Shown here one piece after another: positions 36,885-54,871 of a stretch of 64,000 nucleotides of DNA. Each line of letters begins with the position of its first letter. Position 1 is the first letter of the stretch. The stretch covers positions 4,695,070-4,759,069 of the forward strand of contig NZ_KV917368.1 in NCBI RefSeq assembly GCF_002019605.1, written 5' to 3'. The notes beneath the pieces are model-generated. The model did no database searches, had not been told where the DNA came from, and saw only the letters and a list, made by a program, of their open reading frames with translations. This stretch comes from Alkalihalobacterium alkalinitrilicum. Its GTDB lineage: Bacteria; Bacillota; Bacilli; Bacillales; Bacillaceae_F. The translations under genes were made by a program, and so were the position numbers.

Positions 36885-37208
36885 AGACTACTATACGTAT
36901 ATGACAACCTCTATACATAAATGCATGGACAGGGAAGAGTAAATTCAAAACCCTTCAGAGAGAAAAATCAATAGCTGAAAGATTTTTCAGGATGTATGAA
37001 TTGAACGTCACCCTCGAGCAACTCAATTGAACGAGACTGAATTTGAAAGCAATGACTTCGACACAAGTGGATTACTTCAATTCAGCGCCAAGTAGATAGA
37101 GTCGGCAGCTGCCGTTATCTGAATGAAGTGTGTAAGCTTTTTTTGCTTGCAAACAAAGGTGGTACCGCGAATACAACTCTCTTCGTCCTTTGGGTGGAGG
37201 GGGTTTTT
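36885..37208 (+). promoter_or_regulatory. Valine T-box riboswitch of valS
   Basis: T-box sequence AAAGGTGGTACCGCG at 37155-37169. The specifier context GAATTGAACGTCACCC contains GTC (Val, 37007-37009). Terminator: a GTCCTTTGG...GGAGGGGG region with TTTTT at 37203-37207. Uncharged tRNA-Val should allow read-through into valS. Confidence 0.92.
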
Positions 37209-37327: not shown

Positions 37328-39970
37328 ATGGAAAATCAAGACTTAACAATGCCAACAAAGTATAGCCCACAAGATACCGAAGCAAAATGGTACCCATTTT
37401 GGGTTAATGGGAAGTTTTTTGAAGCAACAGGTGATGAAAAGAAGAAGCCATATACGATAGTTATTCCGCCACCAAATGTTACAGGGAAACTACATTTAGG
37501 ACATGCCTGGGATACAACATTACAAGATATTTTAATACGAACGAAACGAATGCAAGGTTATGATGCATTATGGTTACCTGGGATGGATCACGCTGGGATT
37601 GCGACTCAAGCTAAAGTAGAAGGAAAACTTCGCGAAGAAGGACTTAGCCGATATGATCTTGGTCGTGAAAAATTCTTAGAAAAATCGTGGGAATGGAAAG
37701 AAGAGTACGCTTCACACATTCGTCAGCAATGGTCGAAACTAGGACTAGCATTAGATTATTCACGTGAAAGATTTACGTTAGATGAAGGCTTGTCCAAAGC
37801 CGTTCGTGAAGTGTTTGTTCGTCTTTATGAAAAAGGCTTAATTTACCGCGGCGAATATATCATTAACTGGGACCCACAAACGAAAACAGCCTTATCCGAC
37901 ATCGAGGTTATTTATAAAGATGTTCAAGGTGCGTTTTACCATATGAAATATCCACTTGTCGATGGCAGTGGCTATATTGAAGTAGCGACAACTCGTCCTG
38001 AAACGATGTTAGGAGATACAGCGGTTGCGGTTCATCCTGAAGATGATCGGTACAAGCATTTAATTGGTAAAAAAGTGAAACTACCAATCGTCGGCCGTGA
38101 AATTGAAATTGTCGGTGATGATTATGTTGATATGGAGTTTGGTTCAGGTGCGGTAAAAATTACTCCTGCTCACGATCCGAATGACTTTGAAATTGGAAAT
38201 CGCCATAACTTAGAACGCGTACTCGTAATGAGCGAAGATGGAAAAATGAATGAAAATGCTGACAAATATCAAGGGCTAGATCGATTTGAATGTCGTAAGC
38301 AGATCGTGAAAGACTTACAAGACATGGGAGTTCTCTTTAAAATAGAAGAACATACGCATTCTGTCGGTCATTCTGAGCGTAGTGGCGCTGTTGTTGAACC
38401 GTATCTATCAACGCAATGGTTTGTGAAAATGGAGCCATTAGCAGAAGCGGCGATTGAATTACAAAAGTCAGAAGGAAAAGTAAATTTTGTTCCTGACCGT
38501 TTTGAAAAAACATATCTTCATTGGATCGAAAACATTCGTGATTGGTGTATTTCTCGTCAATTGTGGTGGGGACATCGTATTCCAGCCTGGTACCACAAAC
38601 AAACAGGGGAAATCTATGTTGGTCATGAAGCACCAGCAGATATCGAAAACTGGGAGCAAGACCAAGACGTATTAGATACGTGGTTCTCATCAGCTTTATG
38701 GCCATTTTCAACTATGGGCTGGCCTGACAAAGAAAGTGCCGACTTTAAACGTTACTATTCAACCGATGTGCTTGTAACGGGCTATGACATCATTTATTTC
38801 TGGGTTGCACGAATGATTTTCCAAGGGCTAGAATTTACTGATGAGCGTCCGTTTAAAGATGTCCTCATTCACGGTTTAGTCCGTGATTCACAAGGACGTA
38901 AAATGAGTAAATCACTCGGTAACGGTGTTGATCCAATGGACGTTATCGACAAATACGGTGCAGATGCGCTTCGTTTCTTCTTAGCGACAGGAAGTTCACC
39001 AGGAAATGATTTACGCTTCTATTGGGAAAAAGTAGAATCAACATGGAACTTTGCGAATAAAATTTGGAACGCTTCACGTTTCGCCTTAATGAATATGAAC
39101 GGAATGAAGTATGAAGAAATCGATTTAACAGGTGAAAAATCAATCGCGGATCAATGGATCTTAACACGTCTTCAAGAAACGATTGAGTCCGTTACTCGAT
39201 TAACCGAAGCGTACGAATTCGGCGAAGTGGGCCGTGTGCTTTATAACTTCATTTGGGATGATTTCTGTGACTGGTATATTGAAATGGCGAAGCTACCGCT
39301 TTATGGTGATAATGAAGAAGCCAAGAAAACAACACGTTCTGTTCTGGCGTACGTTTTAGATCAAACGCTTCGTTTATTACACCCGTTAATGCCGTTTATT
39401 ACCGAGGAAATATGGCAACATTTGCCGCATGATGGCGAATCAATTACGGTTGCGGCTTGGCCTGAAAAACAACAAGACTTCATGTTTTCCAATGCTGTTG
39501 CGGACTTCAACTTATTGAAAGACATCATTCGTTCTGTACGTAATACGCGTTCTGAGTTGAATGTACCAATGAGTAAGCAAATCGAACTTCACATTAAAGC
39601 GAAAGATGAGCAAGTACTTGATCAATTAAACCGTGGACTTCTGTATATTGAAAAGTTCTGTAACCCAAGTGAACTAAAAATCGGAACGGATATACCGACA
39701 CCTGAAAAATCGATGTCTAACGTCTTAACAGGGGTAGAGTTATACTTGCCACTAGCTGGATTACTAGACCTTGATGCGGAAATTGCTCGTCTCCAAAAAG
39801 AACTCGAAAAGTTTGATAAAGAAGTTGACCGTGTGCAGAAAAAGTTAAATAACCAAGGCTTTATCGCTAAAGCACCTGAAAAAGTCATCGAAGAAGAAAA
39901 AGCGAAAGAAAAAGATTATATCGAAAAACGTGAAACAGTGAAAGCGCGTATTGCGGAGTTAAGAGGATAA
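37328..39970 (+). CDS. valS: Valyl-tRNA synthetase (880 aa)
   Basis: Class Ia synthetase. HIGH motif: [15 protein letters not shown] (residues ~47-61). Editing domain: [22 protein letters not shown] motif: [17 protein letters not shown] (~525). Anticodon-binding domain: [14 protein letters not shown]-terminal coiled coil: [33 protein letters not shown] (~815-850). Full length. AGGGAGGT precedes the ATG. Controlled by the upstream T-box. Confidence 0.97.
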
Positions 39971-39983
39971 TCGAAAAAGAAAA

Positions 39984-40056
39984 GACTGCCCCAGAAAAGT
40001 GTCTACACTCCTCGTCCTTGTGACGAGGGGCTAGCGCATAGGGTCAGTCCTTTTTT
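39984..40056. terminator. Terminator-like repeat, copy 2 (after valS, shared with the convergent operon)
   Basis: GACTGCCCC (39984-39992) faces GGGTCAGTCC (40041-40050), followed by TTTTTT; an inner CTCGTC/GACGAG hairpin is present. AAGTGTCTACACTCCTCG matches the copy after ysxE. The stop codon of the - strand ATP-grasp gene (40044-40046) lies inside it. Confidence 0.65.
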
Positions 40057-40916
40057 AATTTACGAATAATATGGTGTAAATACAGTTCAACAATATTAAT
40101 GTCAGACGTTGCACTTAACGTTCGGCTTCCGACAACATCTTCAATCTCATTAAATAATAGATTACCTTCTTCATCGAATAAAAAGTCAATGCCGACAAAA
40201 TCAAACTCAAACTCATCAATAATCGTATAGATGATCTGTTTTTCAGAATCAGATAATGTGTACAGGTGAGCAGAACCACCGAGTGTAAAATTAGCTTTGA
40301 AATCAGTTTCTGAACTTCGCAGCACCGCGGCAATAATTTCATCACCAATGACAAACACACGTAAATCTTTCCCGGTCGTACCTGCTGGTCGTTGGACAAC
40401 GACGTCACGTCCAACAAAAGCATCCACATTTTGTATGAAATCATTTTCATCAGAAATAAGGACCACTTGCTTACCACCACGACCTTCGGCTTCTTTTAAG
40501 ATCACAGGAAAAGGAAATGGAATGGAAGAACGTTCACCAGAAAAGCGCTGTAAAAAGATCGTATCAACAGTCGGAACAGATAATTGGGCAATAATTTGAT
40601 GGGTTTTTGCTTTATGGTTACAAACCTCAGAAACGAAAGAAGAATTAAATACTGGGATGTCTAACAACTCTAGTTGTTTACTAAAAAAAGGATCCATGAC
40701 ACGAACAATAGCAAAATTAGGTAGATCGATTTTTTTTCCCTTATAAGTTATCGTTAAGTTTGAATCAATAATGCCTAGCTGAAAGTTTTCCCGTAAAAAT
40801 AACTGGATGGATAGATTTAGTTTTTCTCCTTCTTCAATCACCCAATTAATAAAGGCTTCGTTTCTAATCGCTTCTGCTTCTGGATAAATGAGCCAGCCGT
40901 TCATATTAGGACGCAC
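40044..40916 (-). CDS. RimK-type ATP-grasp ligase, second copy (290 aa)
   Basis: ATP-grasp fold: FPVILKEAEGRGGKQVVLI (ATP-binding Lys, ~residue 145), VVVQRPAGTTGKDLRVFVIGDEIIAAVLR (R-loop), and GIDFLFDEEGNLLFNEIEDVVGSR (Mg-binding; reads E-I-E-D where most relatives have E-x-N). Such enzymes join a carboxylate to an amine through an acyl phosphate. The N-terminus GWLIYPEAEAIRNEAFINWV parallels the upstream paralogue. Last gene of the operon; overlaps the preceding gene by 11 nt. Substrate unknown. Confidence 0.85.
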   Translation of the reverse strand: MRPNMNGWLIYPEAEAIRNEAFINWVIEEGEKLNLSIQLFLRENFQLGIIDSNLTITYKGKKIDLPNFAIVRVMDPFFSKQLELLDIPVFNSSFVSEVCNHKAKTHQIIAQLSVPTVDTIFLQRFSGERSSIPFPFPVILKEAEGRGGKQVVLISDENDFIQNVDAFVGRDVVVQRPAGTTGKDLRVFVIGDEIIAAVLRSSETDFKANFTLGGSAHLYTLSDSEKQIIYTIIDEFEFDFVGIDFLFDEEGNLLFNEIEDVVGSRTLSATSDINIVELYLHHIIRKLKKD

Positions 40917-41811
40917 CTTTTAGCTTTCCAAGGATATATTCGATCATCCAATCCGCCACATTAATTCCAGTACAGTCATAAATATTGCGAATATGTGCAT
41001 TAGAATTCACTTCGCATACGTAGCGTTCACCATCTTCACCGAATAATAAATCAACACCCGCAAAATCGGTTCCCATAACTTTTGAACATCTTACCGCCAG
41101 TTCCACTTCTTCAGCAGTCGGTTGATAAGGTTCCATTGTTGCACCTGCACTCACATTCGCACGGAAATCGGTGGTGGATTGTCTGAGCATCGACGCAACG
41201 ACTTGATTACCGACAACGTTCAAGCGAATATCTTTTCCATAACTCGCTTCAATTAATTGTTGAATAACAAAGGGGGTCGTACCTAATTGCTTCACTTTGG
41301 TGAAAAAAGTTTCGAAGGTATCAATAAGATATACTTGTTGACCGAACGATCCAAAGGCTTCCTTCATAACAAATGGATACCCAAGTTCATTCGCGATCTC
41401 ACGATAGTAAGAAGCATCGGCATCTTCAACAGGAAAAAAGCGCATCGGTGAAAGAATTGTTTTCGGGATCGGTAATTGATGGTCTGCTAATACTTGATAC
41501 ATTAGGGTTTTATCATCACAGTTTTCGATCGACTGTGCAGAGTTGAACAAAGGAATTCCAAGTGTTTCGAGCTGCTTTGCGAGGCGAATATCTTTATCTG
41601 CAAACACGACAAAGTCAGGGTGTTCGCCTTCATAAGGCCCTTTAATGGAAGAGTTGCCGTCTTCAATCGTAATGACGAGTTCATCGTTTTTGATAAGCGT
41701 TGTCTGGATTTGATGACGACTGGCTGCTTCTTGAACCCACTTGGCAAAATCTAAAAATTTGTTTTCCTTTAAGCTTCCGTTATAAATGATCCAACCTTTA
41801 TATTGACTCAT
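40906..41811 (-). CDS. RimK-type ATP-grasp ligase, first copy (301 aa)
   Basis: Same architecture as its downstream neighbour: N-terminal GWIIYNGSLKENKFLDFAKWV pre-ATP-grasp region, YPFVMKEAFGSFGQQVYLI (ATP Lys ~157), KDIRLNVVGNQVVASMLRQ, and FAGVDLLFGEDGERYVCEVNSNAH (Mg-binding Asp, Glu and Asn, complete). It resembles alpha-L-glutamate ligases of the RimK/LysX group. It overlaps the amidohydrolase gene upstream by 4 nt and the second ligase by 11 nt, so the operon is tightly coupled. The two ligases probably add residues in sequence or to related substrates (inference). Confidence 0.87.
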   Translation of the reverse strand: MSQYKGWIIYNGSLKENKFLDFAKWVQEAASRHQIQTTLIKNDELVITIEDGNSSIKGPYEGEHPDFVVFADKDIRLAKQLETLGIPLFNSAQSIENCDDKTLMYQVLADHQLPIPKTILSPMRFFPVEDADASYYREIANELGYPFVMKEAFGSFGQQVYLIDTFETFFTKVKQLGTTPFVIQQLIEASYGKDIRLNVVGNQVVASMLRQSTTDFRANVSAGATMEPYQPTAEEVELAVRCSKVMGTDFAGVDLLFGEDGERYVCEVNSNAHIRNIYDCTGINVADWMIEYILGKLKGAS

Positions 41812-42470
41812 AGTTTTCCTCTTTCATTTAAAAAGTAAATAATTTCTGTAAGACAATCAAGAATACGATAAAAGTCTGTCGCATTTCTTTCTAATTTTAA
41901 AAAGCGCCAATTGATTTCGATTTGTATTGCTGCGATCCCACATGTTCTTGCGATCGTAGAAGATACGGTATGAGCAAAACCTGCCGTAAAAATATGATCA
42001 ATCTTTACATTCTCAAATTGATGCTTTAAAAAAAACGCTTGAATCGTTTCACCTAGTTCGATCTGATGTTGAATATTACGCCCTCTCCCTGTTCCAATAT
42101 CGAATGAGTGGGGGCGTTGGTCTGACATAATATGTAAGTCTAACACATAGCGAATCTCGTGATGCTCTACTTTTTCACGGAGCATGTCTTTATAAGGATT
42201 CGTTTTATCGTAATTCGCATCATCTTGATTGTTTTTCGTTTTATAAGCCGCGTGACAGCCTGTCCGCTCGTGAAGAAAGTGAGTGAGAACACCAGTCAAA
42301 TACTCGGCCCTCTTTTCCAATCCTTCACGTATTTGTGGAACACTATGTGGAGCCGACACAAGTGTAGCGCCTGTTCCTTCTAAAAATATAAAATGATTAT
42401 CTATACATAAATCTTCATTGATGAACCGTTGCAAAAGTGCATGAATATCTTCTATTGTAGGTAGTTGCAT
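41808..42470 (-). CDS. N-formylglutamate amidohydrolase-like enzyme (220 aa)
   Basis: Family signs: TLVSAPHSVPQIREG (metal-ligand His ~42), YVLDLHIMSDQRPHSFDIGTG (His ~113) and AIQIEINWRF (Glu ~185, Asn ~187), which match the PH(A/S)...DLH...Q(I/V)EIN pattern of the zinc-dependent FGase/HutG family. Members cleave N-acyl-glutamate or related amide bonds. No histidine-utilisation genes are nearby; the partners are ATP-grasp ligases, so it may trim or recycle the ligation product (inference). Overlaps the next gene by 4 nt. Confidence 0.8.
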   Translation of the reverse strand: MQLPTIEDIHALLQRFINEDLCIDNHFIFLEGTGATLVSAPHSVPQIREGLEKRAEYLTGVLTHFLHERTGCHAAYKTKNNQDDANYDKTNPYKDMLREKVEHHEIRYVLDLHIMSDQRPHSFDIGTGRGRNIQHQIELGETIQAFFLKHQFENVKIDHIFTAGFAHTVSSTIARTCGIAAIQIEINWRFLKLERNATDFYRILDCLTEIIYFLNERGKL

Positions 42471-42486
42471 TGATCATTCCCCATTA

Positions 42487-44421
42487 TCAATCATTTGAAA
42501 TACTTTCTCTCACTTTTGAAAACGATATGTAAACAGAAATCGGTATTAAGATACATAGTATCATTATCATATAGTCTAGGGAAAGACCCGTAGACATCGT
42601 AGCTAATACAGCGGCAATAATTGAGAAGAATTGTAAGTTTAAGTTTTTGCGAAATAAATATGGCAAACAACGTTGGACTTCAATAATTTTACCGACATTT
42701 TTTAAGCCTAACTCATTGCGGATCGGTGCAGGGATTCCGATTGACACATTCATCGAACTTTCAGACGGAATAATACTCGTTTCTCGTACGAGATCAACTG
42801 AATCCATCGCGAGTACGCGAACTTTTACTTCTGTTGCACGATTTTTTAAAATAATCGTATCAGTTTCTTCAAGTCCTAATAGTTTTAATGAATGGGGCGA
42901 CACCCTCACAATATTACTAGCTTCATCTGTCGAATATGGACGGATTACTTTAAGTTGTAATGTTGCTTGTCGGATCATTTTCTCGGCGATCTCGTTGTTT
43001 ATTCTTTTAAATATGGAGCGGTTCTCTGTTTTCTTTGAATAATCATGCAAAGGATACAACTTAGCATCCACGTAGCCGACTTTTTGTAAAGATGCTTTAA
43101 AAACTTGCCGTTCAATATACGGAAAAAAAGGCACCGCTTCGCCATTTTCGTAATACTTAAGAACTTCATGAACTTGTTCGTCCGCTTTCGGGTGGGTATA
43201 GAATTTTTGATAATAATAATCGGACAAAATATCAGGTGGCAGTTCATAGTCAATAAACTGTCTCTGAAGGAAATTTAATTTTACGGTTTCATCATCGAGA
43301 GTAGCATTATATGTAATGTTCGAGCGATGAATATCAAAAGAAGCCCCTGTGACTGTGTTCACCATCTCAAACATCGTACACTGTTGGTCGAGAGCGTCAT
43401 AGATGTTTTTCGATACAATAATGTTTCCATCTTTAATTGCATTAACATTCATGACCCCTATTTTATTGAAAGAAGCGCACGGATATTTCTGAATTAAGAG
43501 TTTTGCAACGTTGTTAGCAGTGACTTCTAGCTTGTTTTTTGTCGATAATCCAATTTGGATATCATCTTCGAGGGTGAACTGATCATTCGCTTGCACGACA
43601 CAACGTCTACACTTCCCGTTAAGAGGGTTCCAAACCGTGACATAATCATTTTCTGCTAATCCGAGTTTCTGCATTTGCTTCGGATGAAGGTCTACTCGAT
43701 GATGAGGGAAAATGCCTTTCAAGCGAGTGTCGGTTGAAACATTCACTTTTGTCATTGGTCCATTCATAAACACATTACTTTGCTGACTAACTAATGTCAA
43801 CGCGATGAAAGCTTTTAGTAAGTTATAAAATGATTTCTCTTCGTAATGAGTGTTATGAAAATTTTCTGGAATATGCACCTTGATTGTGACGACGTTGTTT
43901 TCACGAGGTTGATCAAGAGATTGAATGTTTACGATAGGGTTTAAGCCGTTTTGTATCCAAATAGCTTCTATTAACTGTTGAAAGGGAACCAGTTTACTAG
44001 AATTATGACCTTCTATTGAAATTACTATACGATGTGACTGTTGTTCAGTAGGGTTGCCAATTTGAATGATCGTATGAGGGTGATCTGAGTCTTTCATTTG
44101 GTTTATTAATGTAGACAACGAGTTTTCCGAATGTGTCCGTTTCTTTCGGACTCGATAATAAAAAGGACAGCTGGCGAGCTCTTGTATGACACTTCCGATT
44201 ATATAACTGTTAGGAACGACCTCACTAATCTCATGACCGACTGTAAAGGGTGCATAGAGCATAGCATTACCAATCCCTTTTTTATATTTAAATGATGAAA
44301 GTGCAAAGCGTGAGCCACGATAACTAGATTTTAATAACTGCATCTCATGGGTTGAATGGCTCGTAAGCACATTCATAATAGCTTCATCGTTGATCGTTGG
44401 CTCAGTACGTTTTACTAACAT
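42487..44421 (-). CDS. Large membrane-anchored protein with amidohydrolase-like pseudo-domain and double-psi-barrel-like segments (644 aa)
   Basis: Not a recognised family. Residues ~30-215 look like a diverged copy of the neighbouring amidohydrolase: GNAMLYAPFTVGHEISE stands where the enzyme has TLVSAPHSVPQIRE, and VVTIKVHIPENF...SFYNLLKAFIAL where it has AAIQIEINWRF...DFYRILDCLTEI. The metal-ligand His and Glu are missing. Residues ~240-300 (VDLHPKQMQKLGLAENDYVTVWNP) and ~505-585 (VSPHSLKLLGLEETDTIILKN...VSIGIPAPIRNELGL) read as double-psi beta-barrel domains. Two membrane segments lie at ~598-635. First gene of the operon; GGGAGATAGG precedes the ATG. Confidence 0.7.
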   Translation of the reverse strand: MLVKRTEPTINDEAIMNVLTSHSTHEMQLLKSSYRGSRFALSSFKYKKGIGNAMLYAPFTVGHEISEVVPNSYIIGSVIQELASCPFYYRVRKKRTHSENSLSTLINQMKDSDHPHTIIQIGNPTEQQSHRIVISIEGHNSSKLVPFQQLIEAIWIQNGLNPIVNIQSLDQPRENNVVTIKVHIPENFHNTHYEEKSFYNLLKAFIALTLVSQQSNVFMNGPMTKVNVSTDTRLKGIFPHHRVDLHPKQMQKLGLAENDYVTVWNPLNGKCRRCVVQANDQFTLEDDIQIGLSTKNKLEVTANNVAKLLIQKYPCASFNKIGVMNVNAIKDGNIIVSKNIYDALDQQCTMFEMVNTVTGASFDIHRSNITYNATLDDETVKLNFLQRQFIDYELPPDILSDYYYQKFYTHPKADEQVHEVLKYYENGEAVPFFPYIERQVFKASLQKVGYVDAKLYPLHDYSKKTENRSIFKRINNEIAEKMIRQATLQLKVIRPYSTDEASNIVRVSPHSLKLLGLEETDTIILKNRATEVKVRVLAMDSVDLVRETSIIPSESSMNVSIGIPAPIRNELGLKNVGKIIEVQRCLPYLFRKNLNLQFFSIIAAVLATMSTGLSLDYMIMILCILIPISVYISFSKVRESISND

Positions 44422-44469
44422 AACCTATCTCCCTTTGTAGTTGTTCGGAAATTCTATTTTCGTTATAGT

Positions 44470-44487
44470 TACAATATCATTATTGTA
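44470..44487. promoter_or_regulatory. Perfect palindrome in the divergent promoter region
   Basis: TACAATA-TCAT-TATTGTA. Each arm contains a TACAAT -10-like hexamer, one per strand. It may therefore be two facing -10 elements or an operator controlling the ligase operon and folC. No good -35 was found for either direction. Confidence 0.45.
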
Positions 44488-44527
44488 CCAAACAATGGAC
44501 AATCGAAAAATAGGAGAGAAACTCATA

Positions 44528-45835
44528 ATGAAACCATCATTTGAAGAAATCATCACATTGATTCAAAACCGAAACATTATTCAACTCGGCTTAGAAAATA
44601 TGACAGGGTTTTTAGAGGAAATTGGAAATCCTCATCGAAAACTTAAAGTTATCCATATTGCGGGAACGAACGGTAAAGGCTCTACACTCAATTTTATAAG
44701 AGAAATGTTGCTAGAAGCTGGTTATCAAGTGGGAACTTTTACAACGCCAGCCGTCTTCAGCTATGAAGAGCAAATTTCCATCAATAAAGATCCGATAAGT
44801 AAAGAGAATTTTGTTGAGGTGTTTCAACATTTAACTCCTCCTCGCGAAACATTTGAACAGCGTGAACAAGTTGTGCTGACAGAATTTGAATGTTTAACCG
44901 CGATGATGTTTTACTTTTTTGCAGAAGTTCGGCCTGTTGATTTTGTACTCGTCGAAACAGGAGTAGGAGGAAGACTAGATGCAACGAACGTTACGATGCC
45001 TTTATTGACCGTCATTACGAATATTGGGAGGGACCATATGCAGTTGCTCGGTGAATCGAAAGAAGATATTGCTAATGAAAAAGCAGGGATCATCAAACGA
45101 GGTGTCCCACTGATTACCGCAGAAGAAGACGAGGCGATATTGGCGAATTTTAAACAACATACCGCCGATAAAAAGGCAAAGCTATATGCATTACATCATG
45201 ACTTTGCCATTAGTGATCGTGAAGTAGGCAAGGCTAACCAATCGTTTTCGTTTGTATCCCCATTTCGAAAAGTAGATAGCCTCCAACTTTCCATGCTCGG
45301 CGAACATCAAGCGAAAAACGCTGCTCTAGCTTTAATGACCGTAGATTACTTAAAAACGTATCAAGCCCTCATGATCAAGGAAGATGATATTCGAAAGGCC
45401 TTGAAGAATGCAACTTGGAAGGGACGTTTTGAAAAAGTAAGCGAGCGTCCTCTCATTTATGTAGACGGTGCTCATAATCGTGAAGGAGTAGCTGCATTAG
45501 CGAGTATGTTACAGGACCACTTTCAAGAAAAAAACATTAACGTATTGTTTGCGGCGACAAAGGAAAAAGAAATTGAAGCGATGCTCAGTCCTTTATATGA
45601 AATCGTTAATGAAATTAGCTTTACTAGTTTTGAATTTCCACGAGCCGCATTAGCAACCGATTTATTTCAACAATCTAGTTTTACAAATAAACGGTTAGTC
45701 GAAGATTGGCAGGATGAGATCGAACACCAACTCTCTACGTTAAAAGAGGGTGACTTATTCCTTATAACAGGTTCTTTATATTTTATCGGACAAGTTAAAA
45801 CGTTTATTATCGAACACCAAAGAGATCATAAATAG
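44528..45835 (+). CDS. folC: Folylpolyglutamate synthase / dihydrofolate synthase (435 aa)
   Basis: Mur-ligase-family enzyme adding glutamate to folates. P-loop: HIAGTNGKGSTLNFIREML (~residue 46); then LVETGVGGRLDATNV, TNIGRDHMQLLG, the carbamylated-Lys region GEHQAKNAALAL, and VDGAHNREGVAALASML. ATG 44528 follows TAGGAGAG by ~10 nt; the longer frame from 44441 has no ribosome site and crosses the palindrome. Position after valS agrees with B. subtilis. Confidence 0.95.
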   Translation: MKPSFEEIITLIQNRNIIQLGLENMTGFLEEIGNPHRKLKVIHIAGTNGKGSTLNFIREMLLEAGYQVGTFTTPAVFSYEEQISINKDPISKENFVEVFQHLTPPRETFEQREQVVLTEFECLTAMMFYFFAEVRPVDFVLVETGVGGRLDATNVTMPLLTVITNIGRDHMQLLGESKEDIANEKAGIIKRGVPLITAEEDEAILANFKQHTADKKAKLYALHHDFAISDREVGKANQSFSFVSPFRKVDSLQLSMLGEHQAKNAALALMTVDYLKTYQALMIKEDDIRKALKNATWKGRFEKVSERPLIYVDGAHNREGVAALASMLQDHFQEKNINVLFAATKEKEIEAMLSPLYEIVNEISFTSFEFPRAALATDLFQQSSFTNKRLVEDWQDEIEHQLSTLKEGDLFLITGSLYFIGQVKTFIIEHQRDHK

Positions 45836-45962: not shown

Positions 45963-47699
45963 GTGACAAAGAAAGTAAAAAAATCTTTATGGATTATTTG
46001 GTTAGTAATGACGGTCATCTTTATTACAGCGTTTGAACAATATGCTCTCTCTTTGCTTGTTGAAAATAAAATGGAGCTTCTATCTTTATTTATTTTAGCA
46101 GGTATTACCGCCCTATTCCCAATCCAATACAAAGGATATTCCTTCGTTCTATTCCAATGGGTATCTCTCGCAAGTTTTCTACTGTATGGTCTTTTTATTG
46201 AAATAATTGTCACGCAATTCGCACTAGTTATTTCATTGATTGTTATGAAGATTAATCGAGAAAACTTGTACCGAATTCCTCTAAACTCAATCATGTTTTA
46301 TATAACGTCACTTTCGTCAGCGGGAATTTATTATTTGATGGTTGGACTTTCACTACCAAGCGCTTTAGAAGTAATCGTACCATTAGCCGCGTATGTCGGC
46401 ACATTTTTATTTGTAAACCATGTGTTAATTTATTCAATTCGCAATTATTTAGTTAAAGTCAAAACGAAGTTTATTGATAAAGGAACCGTTTGGGAACTCT
46501 CAACAGCTGCCCTCGTTTTGCCCATGAGTATCATTTTGGTCATGCTTTACCAAGAAATTGGTTATACAGCATCTGGAATGGTTGCCGTAGCTTTTATCGG
46601 CATATCGATTATGTTGAAAGTGTACCGAAGAAGTGAACGAATGAATGAACGACTAAAAAAAGTAAATGAGCTCGGCATTGAGTTAAGTAGTACGTGGGAA
46701 GTACAAGAAACCGCTCACTTATTTGTGAAAAAAATGAAAGAGTTATTCAAAAACAACTATATTTATATATATACGGTTGAAGACAGAATGTTAAAGTTGT
46801 TAGCTTCATATCAAGAACAACCGAGTGAAATTTTATCAATCGAAAAAACAGTTGATTCGATCACAGAGAAAGCCTACCGAAAGAAAAAAGGAGTTGTCTA
46901 CCAAAAGCGCAGTCAATGGCCAGGACCGGAGCGACTTCTGTTAAAAGGAGCGCATTCTGTTATGATTGTCCCGATTATTCAACATAGTGAAATAAAAGGA
47001 GTTATCACAATTGCTGTCAGTGAAAAAAATGCATATAAAAAACAAGATGTCACGTTAGTTGAGATTCTCGCCAATTTTCTCGGTGTTGCTATGGATAACG
47101 CCCGCCATTACGAACAGACGATAAAAGAAAGTGAGCGTTGTTCACTAACCGACCTCTACAACTATCGATCATTTGAACGAACATTAATTGAAGAATATGA
47201 ACGAAGCATCATTCAGAATGAAAAACTAGCTGTTATTTTATTAGACCTCGATCACTTTAAATCGGTCAATGATACGTATGGTCACCAAGCAGGAAATGAA
47301 GTACTCTGTCAATTGGCAAAATTAATGGAGAACATCATAGGTGATGATGGCTCTGTAGCCCGTTACGGTGGCGAAGAGTTTGTGATCATGTTAACCAATA
47401 CAAATCTAACGAATGCACATAAGATAGCCGAACAATTGCGAAGTCAAATTGCCAATAACAGTTTCAATATTCATAATGATCTTAATCATGGTGAGAAAAA
47501 GATCATTCACGTTACAGCGAGTATCGGTTTCGCCATAAGTGACAAAGAAGAAACCAATCCCGTTTCACTCGTCCGTCAAGCCGACCGCGCCATGTATACG
47601 GGTGCTAAACAAAAAGGAAGAAATCGTGTAGCGCTGTATAGGGATGATTGTGAAGTCGTAAAAAATGTAGATTTTTTAGCGGATACTTTAACGAGATAA
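45963..47699 (+). CDS. Membrane diguanylate cyclase with GAF and GGDEF domains (578 aa)
   Basis: Makes cyclic di-GMP from GTP. Residues ~1-220 are about seven hydrophobic segments (a membrane sensor unit); ~235-385 fit a GAF domain (ELFKNNYIYIYTVED...SVMIVPIIQHSEIKGVITIAV...FLGVAMDNA). The GGDEF domain begins CSLTDLYNYRSFE. The signature is intact as RYGGEEF (~468), with metal Asp in ILLDLDHFKSVNDTYGHQAGNEVL and the C-terminal ADRAMYTGAKQKGRNRV. GTG start. It stands directly upstream of the c-di-GMP-riboswitch-controlled pilus operon. Confidence 0.92.
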   Translation: MTKKVKKSLWIIWLVMTVIFITAFEQYALSLLVENKMELLSLFILAGITALFPIQYKGYSFVLFQWVSLASFLLYGLFIEIIVTQFALVISLIVMKINRENLYRIPLNSIMFYITSLSSAGIYYLMVGLSLPSALEVIVPLAAYVGTFLFVNHVLIYSIRNYLVKVKTKFIDKGTVWELSTAALVLPMSIILVMLYQEIGYTASGMVAVAFIGISIMLKVYRRSERMNERLKKVNELGIELSSTWEVQETAHLFVKKMKELFKNNYIYIYTVEDRMLKLLASYQEQPSEILSIEKTVDSITEKAYRKKKGVVYQKRSQWPGPERLLLKGAHSVMIVPIIQHSEIKGVITIAVSEKNAYKKQDVTLVEILANFLGVAMDNARHYEQTIKESERCSLTDLYNYRSFERTLIEEYERSIIQNEKLAVILLDLDHFKSVNDTYGHQAGNEVLCQLAKLMENIIGDDGSVARYGGEEFVIMLTNTNLTNAHKIAEQLRSQIANNSFNIHNDLNHGEKKIIHVTASIGFAISDKEETNPVSLVRQADRAMYTGAKQKGRNRVALYRDDCEVVKNVDFLADTLTR

Positions 47700-47964: not shown

Positions 47965-48010
47965 AGGTTTGGAGCTACTGTAATTAGGGTAATAACTCTT
48001 AGAGGTAGTT

Positions 48011-48130
48011 TGAAAAGGAGCGATGAGTTACGACTTGTAAGTGGGCGCCTAAGTCGTAAGGAGCTAGTGGTGCAACCGACTTTTACATATGACATCTGCG
48101 GAGGTGGTCAAAGGTAAAAGTTATTTTTTT
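48011..48130 (+). promoter_or_regulatory. Cyclic di-GMP-II riboswitch with overlapping terminator
   Basis: The aptamer carries the type II hallmarks recalled from the Clostridium acetobutylicum structure: GATGA...TTGTAAGTGGGCGCC, then AGGAGCTAGTGGTGCAACCGAC, with the strong TTACGACTT/AAGTCGTAA stem (48028-48057). P1 can form between AAAAG (48013-48017) and CTTTT (48080-48084). The same CTTTT belongs to the terminator stem ACTTTTAC (48079-48086) / GTAAAAGT (48114-48121), followed by a T-rich tract (48122-48130). P1 and terminator exclude each other, so c-di-GMP binding should prevent termination: a predicted ON switch for the pilus genes. Confidence 0.85.
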
Positions 48131-48285
48131 GCTTTAAATTTGTCGCATTTTGACAGATTAAGGTAAAAAAGTTAGCGAAACAAGGGGAATCACGCACAAG
48201 GACAAGCCAATCTATTAACGATTTTGAGAGCCAAGAACAGCTCTGAAAATAAATTGAAACTATGAGGAAAAAGGGAGAGATAAGA

Positions 48286-48621
48286 ATGAGAGCACTTATT
48301 CAAAAACGTCTTAAAAACCAACGCGGTTTAACACTAATCGAGTTACTAGTAGTAATTGTTATTTTGGGGATTATTGCAGCGATAGCGGTACCAGCACTAA
48401 TGGGGCAACGTGAATCTGCGGCAGAAAATACAAATGCGCAAACTTTAAAAATAGCAGAAGATGCTTTTCAAAGGTATTCTGTGGTAAATGGAGAAGAACC
48501 AACATTAAAGTCTCAACTTGTTGGTGATTACTTAGAAAGTTGGCCAAAGTGTGCTGATGGAACTGATCTTCCTGCTGCAGAAGTAGCAGACACTCCTTTA
48601 GCGATTACTGAATGTCAATAG
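48286..48621 (+). CDS. pilA: Major type IV pilin, PilA-like prepilin (111 aa)
   Basis: Short basic leader (MRALIQKRLKNQRG), then the type III signal cleaved after Gly: G-LTLIELLVVIVILGIIAAIAVPALMG, with Glu at +5. The hydrophobic helix would form the pilus core. The small C-terminal domain (~75 residues) ends with two Cys (WPKCADG and ITECQ) spaced like the pilin disulfide loop. ATG 48286 follows AGGGAGAG. Followed by a strong attenuator, so the pilin should be made in excess of the downstream products. Confidence 0.92.
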   Translation: MRALIQKRLKNQRGLTLIELLVVIVILGIIAAIAVPALMGQRESAAENTNAQTLKIAEDAFQRYSVVNGEEPTLKSQLVGDYLESWPKCADGTDLPAAEVADTPLAITECQ

Positions 48622-48633
48622 ACTGTTATTATA

Positions 48634-48663
48634 AAAGCTGCCGTAAAAATGCGGCAGCTTTTT
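48634..48663 (+). terminator. Attenuator/terminator after the major pilin gene
   Basis: AAAGCTGCCG (48634-48643) pairs with CGGCAGCTTT (48652-48661), followed by TT. It lies between pilA and the prepilin peptidase gene. Confidence 0.85.
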
Positions 48664-48771
48664 AACCAGAATTGATAAAAATGCGTAAACTTTAAATCAA
48701 AAGGTAATGAATGTAGTTATTTATTAACTGGGTCCTTTTAGACATAATATATTTTAGGAGGAGAGTTAATT

Positions 48772-49524
48772 GTGATTTTCATAGATATATATGTCATTCT
48801 AATAGGATTATTACTCGGCTCCTTCTTCAACGTTGTAGCCATCCGTCTATTAAATAAAAAATCAATCGCCTTCCCTCCTTCTCATTGTCCACATTGCAAA
48901 CACAAATTATCGGTATTAGATTTAGTTCCTGTCTTCAGTTATGTATTTCTAAAAGGCAAATGTCGTTATTGTCAAACAAAAATATCACCTTTATACCCAT
49001 TCGGTGAACTTTTAACAGCTACATCGATTTTTATCGTGTATAAATTTGTCGGTCTACAACTAGAGCTAATTCCAGCACTTCTCCTAACTGTTTTACTTGT
49101 CATTTCTGTATTAACTGACATTCGTAAACAACTTATTCTAGATGTAGTAACGTTACCAATGCTTGGTGTACTTATCATTTCTCACCTATTTATAGGTACA
49201 GAACCATTTTGGTACTATTTACTTGGTGGGGTTGTTGGTTTTGCATTGTTACTACTCATTGCCATCGTTAGTCGAGGTGGAATGGGTGGTGGTGATGTAA
49301 AGCTGTATGCGGCGATTGGTGTCGCGTTAGGACCATGGATGACGGTGATGAGTCTCGTTTTAGCATCATTTGTCGGTACGGTCATTGGTGTACTACTATT
49401 GGCACTTGGCATCGTGAAGCGTAAACAACCGATTGCGTTTGGGCCGTTTATCTTTATTGGAACGCTTTTAGCTTATTTATTTGGACAGGATATTTGGAAT
49501 TGGTATATTAACTTCTTATGGTAA
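48772..49524 (+). CDS. pilD: Prepilin peptidase, PilD/ComC family (250 aa)
   Basis: Membrane aspartic protease that cleaves and N-methylates prepilins. N-terminal GLLLGSFFNVVAIRL, a cytoplasmic zinc loop with four Cys (CPHCKHKLS...CRYCQTKISP, residues ~38-70), and the two catalytic Asp in LTDIRKQLILD (~115) and GGMGGGDVKLYAAIG (~177). About seven membrane segments. GTG start behind AGGAGGAGAG. B. subtilis has its prepilin peptidase gene comC at the same chromosomal place, between folC and spoIIB. Confidence 0.95.
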   Translation: MIFIDIYVILIGLLLGSFFNVVAIRLLNKKSIAFPPSHCPHCKHKLSVLDLVPVFSYVFLKGKCRYCQTKISPLYPFGELLTATSIFIVYKFVGLQLELIPALLLTVLLVISVLTDIRKQLILDVVTLPMLGVLIISHLFIGTEPFWYYLLGGVVGFALLLLIAIVSRGGMGGGDVKLYAAIGVALGPWMTVMSLVLASFVGTVIGVLLLALGIVKRKQPIAFGPFIFIGTLLAYLFGQDIWNWYINFLW

Positions 49525-49536
49525 GGGTGTGAGAAT

Positions 49537-49995
49537 ATGAATAATCAAAAAGGAATTACATTAATTGAGTTACTCGTAACGATTGTTATATTGGGGATTA
49601 TTGTAATTCCTATTCTCACGTTAATGACCAATGCCTTTACGAACACGGTTTCTCAAGGAAGAGAAACGCAAACTCTTTATTTTGCTCAGCAAGTGATCGA
49701 AGAAGTGAGAGTCAATTCGTACCCAAGTGCTTTAAAGGATGAAATAATTTACGGCACTTGTTCCCCTAATAGTGGCTGTACGGAAATTAACATAGCTCAA
49801 CTTGAACCGCCTTTGTTAGGAGATACAGAAGTACTTTATGAAATCTCATTTAGTGAGTTATCTGACGTAACTGATGATGAGGAAAGAAATCAGATATTAG
49901 CAGCTAGCTTTTTTGAAGTAGAAGTAACCGTAAAATCAAACGCACCAAACAGTCAAGATGTTTCTTTAGTTACGGTGGTGAAAAAGCAACCATGA
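49537..49995 (+). CDS. Minor pilin, PilV-like (152 aa)
   Basis: Prepilin signal QKG-ITLIELLVTIVILGIIVIPILTL at the extreme N-terminus, with a five-residue leader (MNNQKG) and Glu +5. The globular part has one Cys pair (GTCSPNSGC). Minor pilins prime pilus assembly and tune adhesion. It overlaps the next gene by 4 nt. The PilV label rests on order and on the FAQQVIEEVR segment after the helix, which is common in PilV proteins. Confidence 0.82.
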   Translation: MNNQKGITLIELLVTIVILGIIVIPILTLMTNAFTNTVSQGRETQTLYFAQQVIEEVRVNSYPSALKDEIIYGTCSPNSGCTEINIAQLEPPLLGDTEVLYEISFSELSDVTDDEERNQILAASFFEVEVTVKSNAPNSQDVSLVTVVKKQP

Positions 49996-50447
49996 GAAAT
50001 CAACGAGGTATTACTTTAGTCGAGTTACTTTTGACGATTACCATTATGTCAATGATTTCTATTCCTGTTTATATGTTAGTAAATAGTACATTGAAAGTCC
50101 ATCAACAAACGAGTATTGATAATCAACTGCAACATGAAGCGCGGTTTATCTCGCAATATATGAGTGAAAAAATTCGCGATGGAGCACAAATTTATAATAC
50201 TCCTGGAAAATGGGAGTTAAGAAAAGATGGAGAGGTATTTATCCGCTATGATGAGGTTACAAAAGAAGTTTTTCTTAAAGATAGTGGCCATCTATTATCG
50301 AATCAAGTAGAAAGTTTTGATGTAACACCTGAGCCAGCCGAAGACCCTGTCAAATACAATATATCCTTATCGTTACAAAATCGAGACCAGTCATATCGAT
50401 TGCAGTTAACCGTTTATAATAATGCGTACTCACGTTATAAAAAATGA
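49992..50447 (+). CDS. Minor pilin, PilW-like (151 aa)
   Basis: Prepilin signal QRG-ITLVELLLTITIMSMISIPVYMLV with a five-residue leader. The ectodomain includes EARFISQYMSEKIRDGAQIY, the 'Rx-ISxYMxxxIRxA' feature of PilW/ComGF-type pilins. No cysteines. Overlaps the previous gene by 4 nt; 16 nt to the next. Confidence 0.82.
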   Translation: MRNQRGITLVELLLTITIMSMISIPVYMLVNSTLKVHQQTSIDNQLQHEARFISQYMSEKIRDGAQIYNTPGKWELRKDGEVFIRYDEVTKEVFLKDSGHLLSNQVESFDVTPEPAEDPVKYNISLSLQNRDQSYRLQLTVYNNAYSRYKK

Positions 50448-50463
50448 GGGATGGTGAGTCATT

Positions 50464-51597
50464 ATGAATACCTGCTTAAGAAATGAAAAGGGAGCGGCTC
50501 TACTTTTAACATTATTTATTATTGTATTTGTTGGAATTGTAGGAGCTAGTTTAATAAATACAACTTTGTACGGTCAAAAAAATACAGTAACTTCTGTTGC
50601 AGAACAAGATGAGTTTTATAAACTTGAAACGGGTTTAGATTTTATGTTGCATGAAATGGCAACATTTTCGATTGAAGACGGGATCCTAATGTATGATGAT
50701 GGGGTTAATGCACCGTATCCAGTTGAAGACGAAAACGGTAACCCACAAAAAATCGTTAAGCGTGGACCGTACTATTATATAGAAACAGGCCAACCATTGA
50801 ATGTTACATATGAAATTGATAATCAGGAGGTAGAAGTATCAGTTTCATATGAGCATGAAGTGATAGGAGAAGAGACGGAGTATACTTATAAAGTCATAGC
50901 TCAATTCCCAAATAGTAAGTTTGAGAGATCACTAGATATGATTGTGAGAGTTCCTGTTAAAAGTGAGTTGATCGAGATCCCTCCCCCACCTCCTGGGCAT
51001 GTGGGACCCCAAAAACCTCCAAAATTTCCTGGAAATAATGGAGATTTAATAATTTATACAGATAAACATAATATACACAGAGATGATTGGAAAAGTATCT
51101 CGGTAAAAAGAAACTCAACGTTTCAAAGCTTTATTGATTATTATGAGTTAGATACTTCAAAAGCAACAACAGTTTGGAATGGTGTTCCTAAACCAAGTAA
51201 TAATAGTGTTAGATATTATAGTTTAATAAAAGCTAGTGGGAATGAAGTTGGGATAGCAATCCAACCTGGGCATTTAACCTATGCAAAAAACGTAGAAATT
51301 AGTGGATGTGGAAGTTCAGGAAGTGTCACAATTCATGGTGTACTAATAGCAGAAAATATCGATATAGGTGGTAATTGTAAATATATCTTATCTGGTGGGA
51401 TTATCGCAAAAGATTTTACGCAAAGATCAAATGCAACTACATTAGAAGTTGATCCTAATGGAGGTTTTGATGAAGATGGTGGTGCTGACGGTTATGAACC
51501 TCCTCCAAGAGAAATCCCGACCATTAAAGATTCGGACTACAACTGGGGGCTCAACACGCATTTTGAAATTACGAACATGGAAACGAACAGAAAGTAA
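50464..51597 (+). CDS. PilX-like pilin with C-terminal beta-solenoid-like domain (377 aa)
   Basis: PilX-type start: NEKGAALLLTLFIIVFVGIVGASLINTT, with Gly at the cleavage point but Ala-Ala-Leu and no Glu +5, as in PilX/GspK-like tip subunits. Residues ~35-165 form an ectodomain. A proline linker (IEIPPPPPGHVGPQKPP, ~172-188) leads to a region of short repeating strands (VEISGCGSSGSVTIHGVLIAENIDIGG...ILSGGIIAKDF, ~278-325) that looks like a bactofilin-type beta-solenoid. The size and Pro-linker suggest a tip adhesin. Confidence 0.78.
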   Translation: MNTCLRNEKGAALLLTLFIIVFVGIVGASLINTTLYGQKNTVTSVAEQDEFYKLETGLDFMLHEMATFSIEDGILMYDDGVNAPYPVEDENGNPQKIVKRGPYYYIETGQPLNVTYEIDNQEVEVSVSYEHEVIGEETEYTYKVIAQFPNSKFERSLDMIVRVPVKSELIEIPPPPPGHVGPQKPPKFPGNNGDLIIYTDKHNIHRDDWKSISVKRNSTFQSFIDYYELDTSKATTVWNGVPKPSNNSVRYYSLIKASGNEVGIAIQPGHLTYAKNVEISGCGSSGSVTIHGVLIAENIDIGGNCKYILSGGIIAKDFTQRSNATTLEVDPNGGFDEDGGADGYEPPPREIPTIKDSDYNWGLNTHFEITNMETNRK

Positions 51598-51628
51598 CAT
51601 AAGATAATTTGAACTTCGAGGTGACTTC

Positions 51629-52771
51629 ATGTTATTCAACAACAAATACTCAGGCATTGATTTTCGCGAAAAACGAGTGACGTTTGCGACGGTGAGAATG
51701 GACAAGCAGCTTCCTGTACTTCAGGAAGTGTATGAAACGGAATTAACGGACTCCATCGTTGTAGCTGGGAAAGTTCAAGAAAAGGGCTTGCTTGCGACGT
51801 CACTTCGTAGTTATTTACAACAAAATAAAAACGTATCAAAGCATGCTCATTTAGCGATACCGACGCAGCATTCGTTAATTCGCAAAATCAACTCCTTACC
51901 TGATGTAGGAGAGCCTGAGCTTGCGAAGTTGCTTCACTTTCAAATTGGGGAATCGATTCATCTTCCGTTTGAAGAGCCACTTTATGATTTTGTAAAAATT
52001 GGATCGATTTTACCTGAAACAAAACAGGAGACAAGTAACGACTCAGGAGAAGAGGATGAATTCACGTTAGAAGAATTAACTAAAAGCGTTGAAAAGGAAC
52101 TGCAAGGTCCGCGAAGTGAAATTTTATTTTTTGCGACCTCTCGTCAGTTATCAGAAGGTTTGCTTGAAGTTTGTGAGGATGCAGGATATAAACCGTTAAC
52201 GGCGGAATTACGAGCTTTAGCGTTACAACGGTTGTTGATGTATACACATCCGAATTGGTTAAAAGGAACTGAGATGATCTTGGATGTTTCTAATGATTCA
52301 GTTGATATTCACATATTTAAAGAAGAGCTGATCGTCTTTTCTCGTACGATGGAAATGAATCGCAATGACTATTTTAATAGTTTAAATTCAGCTTCTGAAG
52401 ACGTCCTATCCTTTAATTCGGATACGTTTACCGTTCATGAGGAAATTGCCGCTACGACTGAAAGACCCAAGAACTTCCAAGAGGATGCCTATCTTGATGA
52501 TTTACTCAATGAAATTCAAAAGGCGCAAAACTTTTATCGATATTCGTTAGGAGAACGAGATAGTGAATTTGATCGTATCATCGTGACGGGTGAAAATACT
52601 AAACTCATTTTTTCTCGTTTAGTTGAGCGGCTCCCGAATGAAGTTGTTCAAATAGATTACAGCTCGATAGTTGATTTTGGATTTATGCAACATGATTTAC
52701 TTGATAGTTGCAGTGTTGCGATTGGTCTTGCCATGCGTGGGAATGAAAAAGGAGAAAAGAAAAAGAAGTAG
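51629..52771 (+). CDS. pilM: Type IV pilus inner-membrane accessory protein PilM (380 aa)
   Basis: Actin-like cytoplasmic ATPase-fold protein. N-terminal SGIDFREKRVTFATV (phosphate-1-like loop), AIPTQHSLIRKINSLP, ELAKLLHFQIGESIHLPFEEPLYDF, then ILDVSNDSVDIHIFKEELIVFSR (phosphate-2-like). Binds the N-terminus of PilN and couples it to the motor. GAGGTGAC precedes the ATG. Followed by pilN and pilO in the canonical order. Confidence 0.88.
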   Translation: MLFNNKYSGIDFREKRVTFATVRMDKQLPVLQEVYETELTDSIVVAGKVQEKGLLATSLRSYLQQNKNVSKHAHLAIPTQHSLIRKINSLPDVGEPELAKLLHFQIGESIHLPFEEPLYDFVKIGSILPETKQETSNDSGEEDEFTLEELTKSVEKELQGPRSEILFFATSRQLSEGLLEVCEDAGYKPLTAELRALALQRLLMYTHPNWLKGTEMILDVSNDSVDIHIFKEELIVFSRTMEMNRNDYFNSLNSASEDVLSFNSDTFTVHEEIAATTERPKNFQEDAYLDDLLNEIQKAQNFYRYSLGERDSEFDRIIVTGENTKLIFSRLVERLPNEVVQIDYSSIVDFGFMQHDLLDSCSVAIGLAMRGNEKGEKKKK

Positions 52772-52810
52772 CAACGAATTTTAACGTTTCATAAGATTGG
52801 AGCGATAACA

Positions 52811-53368
52811 GTGAATATTAACATAGATTTATTACCACAACGAGTCAAGACAAAAGAAGGGGGATTCCCCGTCATTCCTGTAGCTGGTGTTTTAACGGTT
52901 GTCGCCACCGCCAGCCTTCTTACGTACACGTATTTTGATACGAAAAGCTCGGTGCAATCGTTAGAAGAACAAATACTCGCACAAACGGAAGTTCAAAACA
53001 CGTTACAACAAGATTTTCTAACGAAAACGACGGGTCTAACAGAATATAACTATGTTGAGCAGTATACCCATATGAACAGGTTATTAGGAAGTATTTATAA
53101 AGATACGATCGATACGAAAGAACGTGTGTATATGCTGTTACCTGAAAAAGCTGAAGTCAATAATTATTCTTTCGTCAATAGTGGTGAACTTTCGATGCAA
53201 ATCACGTTTCAGTCAAAAGGCGATGCTGCAATTTATTTAAATCGATTATTAAATGCTGATCTTGTGTCAAGTGCGGAAGTACAAACGATTTCAACAAATG
53301 ATCAAGATTTGGTGTATCAATCTCAATTTACTTTAATGCTTCATACGTTAGTAGGTGAAGAGTCATGA
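52811..53368 (+). CDS. pilN: Type IV pilus assembly protein PilN (185 aa)
   Basis: Begins with the PilM-binding motif INIDLLPQRVKTKE, a near-perfect version of the family's 'xNLLPxR' signature. One membrane segment (~21-41), a coiled-coil stretch, and a small ferredoxin-like periplasm-side domain. GTG start behind TTGGAGCG. Overlaps pilO by 4 nt. Confidence 0.88.
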   Translation: MNINIDLLPQRVKTKEGGFPVIPVAGVLTVVATASLLTYTYFDTKSSVQSLEEQILAQTEVQNTLQQDFLTKTTGLTEYNYVEQYTHMNRLLGSIYKDTIDTKERVYMLLPEKAEVNNYSFVNSGELSMQITFQSKGDAAIYLNRLLNADLVSSAEVQTISTNDQDLVYQSQFTLMLHTLVGEES

Positions 53369-54828: not shown

Positions 54829-54871
54829 CATTAGCCTTAATAGCTAGTTTGATAGAAAAGGAGCTATGGAT

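Follow-up and report, generated by a model that had tools for sequence, protein, structure and literature searches.

Characterised members of the RimK/MptN/CofF, FolC, N-formylglutamate amidohydrolase (FGase) and poly-gamma-glutamate hydrolase families make or cut glutamyl amide bonds. In Pseudomonas the RimK ligase works with a protease, there called RimB, that takes glutamates off (PMC11957791), and in Methylorubrum the ATP-grasp ligases MyfA and MyfB build the polyglutamate chain of the cofactor methylofuran (PMC8141765). Here we report the gene content, folds, conservation and modularity of an operon in Alkalihalobacterium alkalinitrilicum, together with the active-site replacements in one of its domains, a pseudo-domain. 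The operon combines two RimK-type ATP-grasp ligases (RimA and its paralogue RimB), an FGase-fold putative zinc amidohydrolase (FG) and a 644-residue protein with a putative membrane anchor (memb644). It lies within a stretch of 64,000 nucleotides from contig NZ_KV917368.1 (GCF_002019605.1), referred to below as the window, and all coordinates are window positions.

The operon is a real, conserved and modular gene set, and a variant of ligase/hydrolase systems. In our judgement the case is evenly balanced that it encodes a cycle in which glutamate-type amide bonds are made and broken at the cytoplasmic face of the membrane. Literature searches returned no description of the gene set, which may nevertheless be mentioned in the amidoligase survey of Iyer et al. 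2009.

The ligases, the hydrolase and memb644

The four open reading frames were confirmed at 40044-44421, all on the minus strand and flanked by valS and folC, in the overlapping or closely spaced arrangement described in the original prediction. Successive genes overlap by 4 and 11 bases, with a gap, of 16 bases, only after the memb644 gene. The same prediction called for two paralogous RimK-type ligases and a hydrolase of N-acyl-glutamate-type bonds, and the ligases and a hydrolase fold of the glutamyl-amide type were recovered: the two ligases match PF08443, and FG has the FGase fold by model comparison.

RimA (40906..41811, 301 residues) matches the RimK family PF08443 at 128.4 bits and RimB (40044..40916, 290 residues, with a GTG start and an ATG a few codons further in) at 93.9 bits, both well above the gathering cut-off of 21. 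RimA also passes the RimK-family alpha-L-glutamate ligase model TIGR00768 (195.9 bits, cut-off 143.4), whereas RimB, a diverged paralogue about 29% identical to RimA, falls under it at 122.2 bits. The metal motif of RimA is the canonical E-x-N (CEVNSNAH), and that of RimB is E-x-E (NEIEDVVG), NEIED being found in RimB and most of its orthologues. The solved structures nearest RimA are named glutamate ligases or lysine-biosynthesis (LysX) enzymes. At the equivalog level the best match of both ligases is LysX (RimA 134.2 and RimB 78.9 bits, cut-off 275.6), and the scores against MptN (NF040720; 115.7 and 67.0 bits, cut-off 350) and the S6 ligase RimK (NF007764; 81.0 and 59.5 bits, cut-off 331) likewise lie below threshold, as does a partial match to cyanophycin synthetase (TIGR02068; 33.6 bits, cut-off 850).

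The sole Pfam match of FG (41808..42470, 220 residues) is to PF05013 FGase, at 22.6 bits (E 1.3e-4) and thus under the gathering cut-off of 28.9. A phmmer search of the PDB with FG returned no relative, the relation to FGases being visible only by fold. The FG model, built from 20 aligned relatives, has a mean predicted local distance difference test score (pLDDT) of 95.6, and because its nearest solved structures are FGases (2q7s, Z 17.0 with a root-mean-square deviation (rmsd) of 3.2 over 185 residues; 2odf, Z 16.2) the family assignment is secured. Poly-gamma-glutamate hydrolases follow closely (3a9l and 21dc, Z 15.8; 5onj, Z 15.5), and aminopeptidases and carboxypeptidases score lower, at Z ~13; identity to the matched FGase and poly-gamma-glutamate hydrolase structures is 14-18% over the aligned parts. 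FG carries the conserved motifs SAPHSV, D-x-N, D-L-H and Q-x-E-x-N, and H42, D84, N86, D111, H113 and E185, invariant in the operonic FGs and nearly so in the wider set, are likely its active-site positions. FG is described here as a putative zinc amidohydrolase. A search for viral relatives of FG found none.

FG-family genes were also seen in other settings. Among 398 genomes sampled from the phylum, 15 (L110, L112-L125) have such genes with varied neighbours and with no RimA-RimB, Mur ligase or membrane protein nearby. In uncultured Bacilli (L068, L070, L072, L073) FG-like genes stand mostly beside an aspartyl-tRNA synthetase and a ThiF-like gene; two of these proteins, at L070 and L073, have no Glu at the conserved position in the last motif and are perhaps inactive.

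The original prediction assigned the 644-residue protein to no known family, which proved wrong at the level of domains, FGase-like and double-psi beta-barrel domains being found in memb644 (42487..44421; model pLDDT 76). Profile comparison and secondary structure place an FGase-like domain at residues ~40-217 (43771..44304), and the N-terminal 180 residues align to the FG family with an hhalign probability of 97.6 (E 3.9e-12). The positions of FG's His42, Asp111/His113 and Glu185 (Asp-x-His, Glu) are taken by other residues in this alignment, and because the aligned active-site residues are replaced we read the domain as an apparently dead FGase.

The domain is followed by a first double-psi beta-barrel resembling the N domain of p97/CDC48 (residues 221-315, 43477..43761), identified by fold (VIA-align Z ~13 over 85 residues) and by a match to PF01568 Molydop_binding of 32.6 bits (cut-off 26.8). 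A second, CDC48-N-like barrel lies towards the C-terminus (residues 486-587, 42661..42966; VIA-align Z 14.5, rmsd 1.7-1.8 over 86-88 residues), and was also found by profile search (hmmsearch, 7dvc E 2e-5 and 7dg9 E 4e-5), its score against CDC48_N PF02359 being 29.4 bits, below the cut-off of 35.1. Molydop_binding and CDC48_N are both double-psi beta-barrel families, and by the modelled folds memb644 has at least two barrels of the CDC48-N type. The protein ends in a hydrophobic helical hairpin, a putative membrane anchor (residues 590-639, 42505..42654), with a hydropathy peak of 2.17 at residue 617 and model helices at 586-610 and 615-639. This pairing of an FGase with a pseudo-FGase that carries double-psi beta-barrels is an unusual domain architecture.

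In Peptoniphilus, Gracilibacteraceae and Clostridia a single protein of ~670-685 residues has the barrel and membrane part behind an FG domain that retains its motifs, and such fusions (L061-L063, L066, L071) support a working link between FG and the membrane protein. In Pseudalkalibacillus, Sporosarcina and one genome from another family of the class (G418), the FG gene and that of a short membrane protein stand side by side. A plausible history would start with the fusion, followed by a second FG copy and then by decay of the fused one.

Conservation and modularity of the gene set

Conservation was surveyed in 397 genomes of the order, the window's own genome included. The full-length membrane protein occurs in 10 of these, in all 10 with FG, RimA and RimB beside it, once in a different order (L045), and homologous blocks occur in other families of the order at protein identities of 27-79%. 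Against the nearest relative the four genes have nonsynonymous divergence (dN) of 0.14-0.23 and synonymous divergence (dS) of 1.3-1.7, a dN/dS ratio of ~0.08-0.16, and the full block is under purifying selection. Since homologous blocks recur and dN/dS is low, the operon is not a chance assembly.

The idea of the four genes as a single fixed unit is nevertheless not supported. RimB orthologues, accepted at E of at most 1e-42, were found in 84/397 genomes, as against 10/397 for the full block, and elsewhere FG and the membrane protein are accompanied by a FolC-related Mur ligase instead. Around the 71 further RimB loci, RimA was present in 66, folC in 53, valS in 40, a Mur ligase in seven, FG in one and the membrane protein in none. 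From these counts over RimB loci and block genomes we conclude that RimA-RimB is an old core in the order, and that FG with the membrane protein is an accessory module found elsewhere with other ligases.

In the window the operon lies between valS, which converges on it (37328..39970, plus strand), and folC, which diverges from it (44441..45835, plus strand) and is next to RimA-RimB in other genomes too, so that the earlier statement that no known pathway is nearby was inexact. RimA-RimB and folC are mostly divergent, with gaps of ~0-130 bases. Among the same 71 loci folC was kept without valS in 13, all from two families (f13 and f25), valS without folC in none, and 18 had neither. Within the window's genus one genome has only RimA-RimB in the slot and another has RimB with a second FolC-like gene, and one genome of the window's family has nothing between valS and folC. 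The second FolC-like gene (L138, 9716-10984, G146) encodes 422 residues, is 40% identical to folC and stands directly before it, at the place that RimA holds in other genomes.

Several relatives carry the Mur ligase within the block, and the loci L040-L044, L066, L069 and L071 have both ATP-grasp and Mur ligases together with FG. The block Mur ligase passes the FolC subfamily model (260.6 bits, cut-off 162.65), yet with support 100/100 it forms a clade of its own, distinct from FolC of those genomes, and has the motif DG[SA]IN or DACIN against DGAHN in FolC. This clade is not represented in the window genome, which has FolC alone. In Peptoniphilus the gene for the FG-membrane fusion lies on the same strand as folC and overlaps it. 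At four further loci (L135 5522-7653, L136 5397-7591, L111 3722-5863, L046 8516-10687) the gene for an operon-clade Mur ligase converges with one for a RimK-like ATP-grasp protein of diverged sequence; two of the genomes have neither FG nor the membrane protein, and the pair is possibly a separate two-gene core.

A genome-wide scan with the 644-residue protein found no relatives, whereas a scan with the FG alignment did. Fifteen weak memb644 matches in other genomes (28-32% identity) were set aside as chance on the basis of the two that were opened (L048 and L049), in which the match is the C-terminal end of a 629-residue protein that in L048 reads as MnmG.

A proposed ligation/hydrolysis cycle and competing accounts

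Three enzyme families of glutamyl amide chemistry, together with the FG-membrane fusions, support a membrane-held cycle of ligation and hydrolysis, for which MyfA/MyfB and the Pseudomonas RimK ligase with its protease are precedents. In such a cycle RimA, as an intact ATP-grasp enzyme, would activate the carboxylate of an acceptor with ATP and then join to it an amino acid, most likely glutamate, while RimB, the conserved partner whose metal site is altered, would add a different residue or linkage, or else regulate RimA. FG would take off the added residue or trim the chain. memb644 would be a scaffold, its tail hairpin inserted in the membrane and its beta-barrels binding substrate or partners; its dead FGase domain would be the remnant of a fused hydrolase that was once active, and possibly forms a pair with FG. 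We infer the chemistry, glutamate as the amino acid and the scaffold role of memb644. Where a further ligase joins the block, that ligase is FolC-related, which supports the cycle.

Several observations weigh against it. RimA-RimB pairs usually have neither FG nor the membrane protein beside them, so that whatever RimA-RimB does, it does not depend on the hydrolase, and FG with the membrane protein is in turn found where RimA-RimB is absent. The chemistry of ATP-grasp and FGase-fold proteins extends to many amides, and it is family membership that suggests glutamate. The FG score falls below the FGase cut-off, RimB lacks the usual Asn metal ligand and may be inactive, and the membrane role of the hairpin is putative, only hydropathy and the model pointing to it. 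The originally proposed addition and removal of amino acids at the membrane therefore stands in part: it fits the anatomy, and the fusions link the hydrolase with the membrane part, but there is no support for the four genes as a fixed unit.

A different account would have the ATP-grasp and Mur ligases build, and FG degrade, an oligomer or polymer of amino acids resembling poly-glutamate or cyanophycin. Cyanophycin and poly-gamma-glutamate systems work by such a combination of ATP-grasp ligase, Mur ligase and hydrolase, the loci with both ligase types beside FG follow it, and the FG fold resembles poly-gamma-glutamate hydrolases. We nonetheless hold polymer turnover to be unlikely, given that the window genome is without the Mur ligase, that cyanophycin synthetase matches are partial and far under the cut-off, and that no export or capsule genes adjoin the operon.

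The cycle could also take a more specific form, in which folate or a related pterin serves as the acceptor. RimA-RimB, with the Mur ligase in some genomes, would then extend folate- or pterin-type cofactor tails, adding alpha-linked or other glutamates to a tail started by FolC, and FG, with the barrel-membrane protein docking the enzymes, would be a membrane-held hydrolase that trims the tail. In E. coli, folate polyglutamates with alpha linkages have been on record for decades, and to our knowledge no enzyme has been assigned to them. The proximity of folC to 53 of 71 RimB loci, its retention without valS but never the reverse, and the fusion gene overlapping folC in Peptoniphilus all speak for folate, as do the FolC paralogy of the extra Mur ligase and the presence of the pterin alpha-glutamate ligase MptN among RimA's better equivalog matches. 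Against this, 18 of the 71 loci are not near folC, and the adjacency may be inherited synteny, the folC-only loci coming from two families. No folate riboswitch was found near the operon in the window and 18 related loci, where most matches were T-boxes. The MptN scores are far under the cut-off and lower than those of LysX, and the Mur paralogue lacks FolC's DGAHN motif, suggesting a different substrate. The folC neighbourhood mildly favours a folate acceptor, inherited synteny can explain much of it, and we regard the acceptor and the trimming and docking scheme, taken jointly, as distinctly improbable.

The remaining accounts are disfavoured or unsupported. Modification of a protein in the manner of ribosomal protein S6 has in its favour the RimK homology of the ligases and a ligase/hydrolase pairing like that of RimABK (PMC11957791), but RimA (81 bits) and RimB (59.5 bits) score far below the S6 ligase cut-off of 331 and FG folds as an FGase rather than as a retropepsin, so we give this account little credence. 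The C-termini of S6, KDEQ in the window genome and DEE, EEE or EQE in three relatives, do not discriminate. Amino-acid biosynthesis on a LysW/ArgW-type carrier, suggested by LysX as the best equivalog-level match (134 and 79 bits), is very nearly excluded: the scores are far below 275.6, the kinase, reductase and aminotransferase are all missing from the operon, and the pathway is largely refuted by the absence of LysW from the genome in a search that detects it in known LysW genomes. Anti-phage defence was rejected: a PADLOC search at E 0.01 with the four proteins, one Mur ligase and one fusion gave no match.

If the ligation/hydrolysis cycle is correct, it would add to Bacillota a membrane-tethered ligase/hydrolase pair for glutamate-type bonds, and would give a function to gene families present in about a fifth of the sampled genomes of the order (RimB, 84/397) that are now placed only by superfamily. 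Were the acceptor a folate or pterin, the operon would represent an unrecognised layer of cofactor-tail editing beside folC in Bacillales, and as its place beside that gene is conserved, a cofactor-tail role can be tested directly.

Flanking signals and comparison with known systems

Upstream of valS lies a T-box leader (36917-37193, plus strand, 134.9 bits), an expected element where the gene encodes an aminoacyl-tRNA synthetase. In the interval from the end of RimB to that of valS we noted by eye nested inverted repeats, CCTCGTC...GACGAGG, followed by a T-rich stretch (39980-40050); they are perhaps a shared terminator and were not listed by the pattern scan. Promoter and terminator scans gave sites no more numerous than in shuffled sequence. 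Beyond folC, a gene at 45963-47699 encodes a membrane GAF-GGDEF protein whose N-terminal part is conserved in 214/381 genomes of the order, and a cyclic di-GMP (c-di-GMP)-II riboswitch (48007-48090, plus strand, 73 bits, gathering cut-off 53.5) lies between it and genes at 48262-56545 that read as a type IV pilus cluster (pilin-like, prepilin peptidase, pilus ATPase). A link between RimK and c-di-GMP is already known. A c-di-GMP link for the operon, considered on account of the GGDEF gene, was rejected: many of the genomes with that gene are without RimB, and there is no specific association.

Set beside known systems, the operon shares with Pseudomonas RimABK a RimK-type ligase encoded with a glutamate-removing hydrolase (PMC11957791, PMC4741518). 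The Pseudomonas system targets S6 and has a retropepsin-like protease as its hydrolase, whereas the window operon has an FGase-fold hydrolase, two ligases and a membrane protein, and a Pfam scan found no retropepsin-like RimB protease among its four proteins. With MyfA and MyfB it shares two ATP-grasp ligases, one of them RimK/MptN-like, which in that system act sequentially on one acceptor; the acceptor there is known, and the excerpted account shows no dedicated hydrolase or membrane scaffold (PMC8141765). MptN and CofF, the alpha-glutamate ligases of tetrahydromethanopterin and F420, are of the same RimK family (RimA-MptN, 115.7 bits), but the operon ligases score far under the equivalog cut-offs (350 and 300) and the organisms differ. 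Cyanophycin synthetase and poly-gamma-glutamate systems resemble the relatives of the operon in bringing together ATP-grasp ligases, Mur ligases and a hydrolase, yet here the ligases are separate and small, with no single CphA protein, and the window operon is without the Mur ligase. FG, finally, resembles FGase (PF05013) and the phage/YndL poly-gamma-glutamate hydrolases in fold and motifs, but scores under the Pfam cut-off, is 14-18% identical to them over the aligned structures and forms fusions with double-psi beta-barrels in some relatives.

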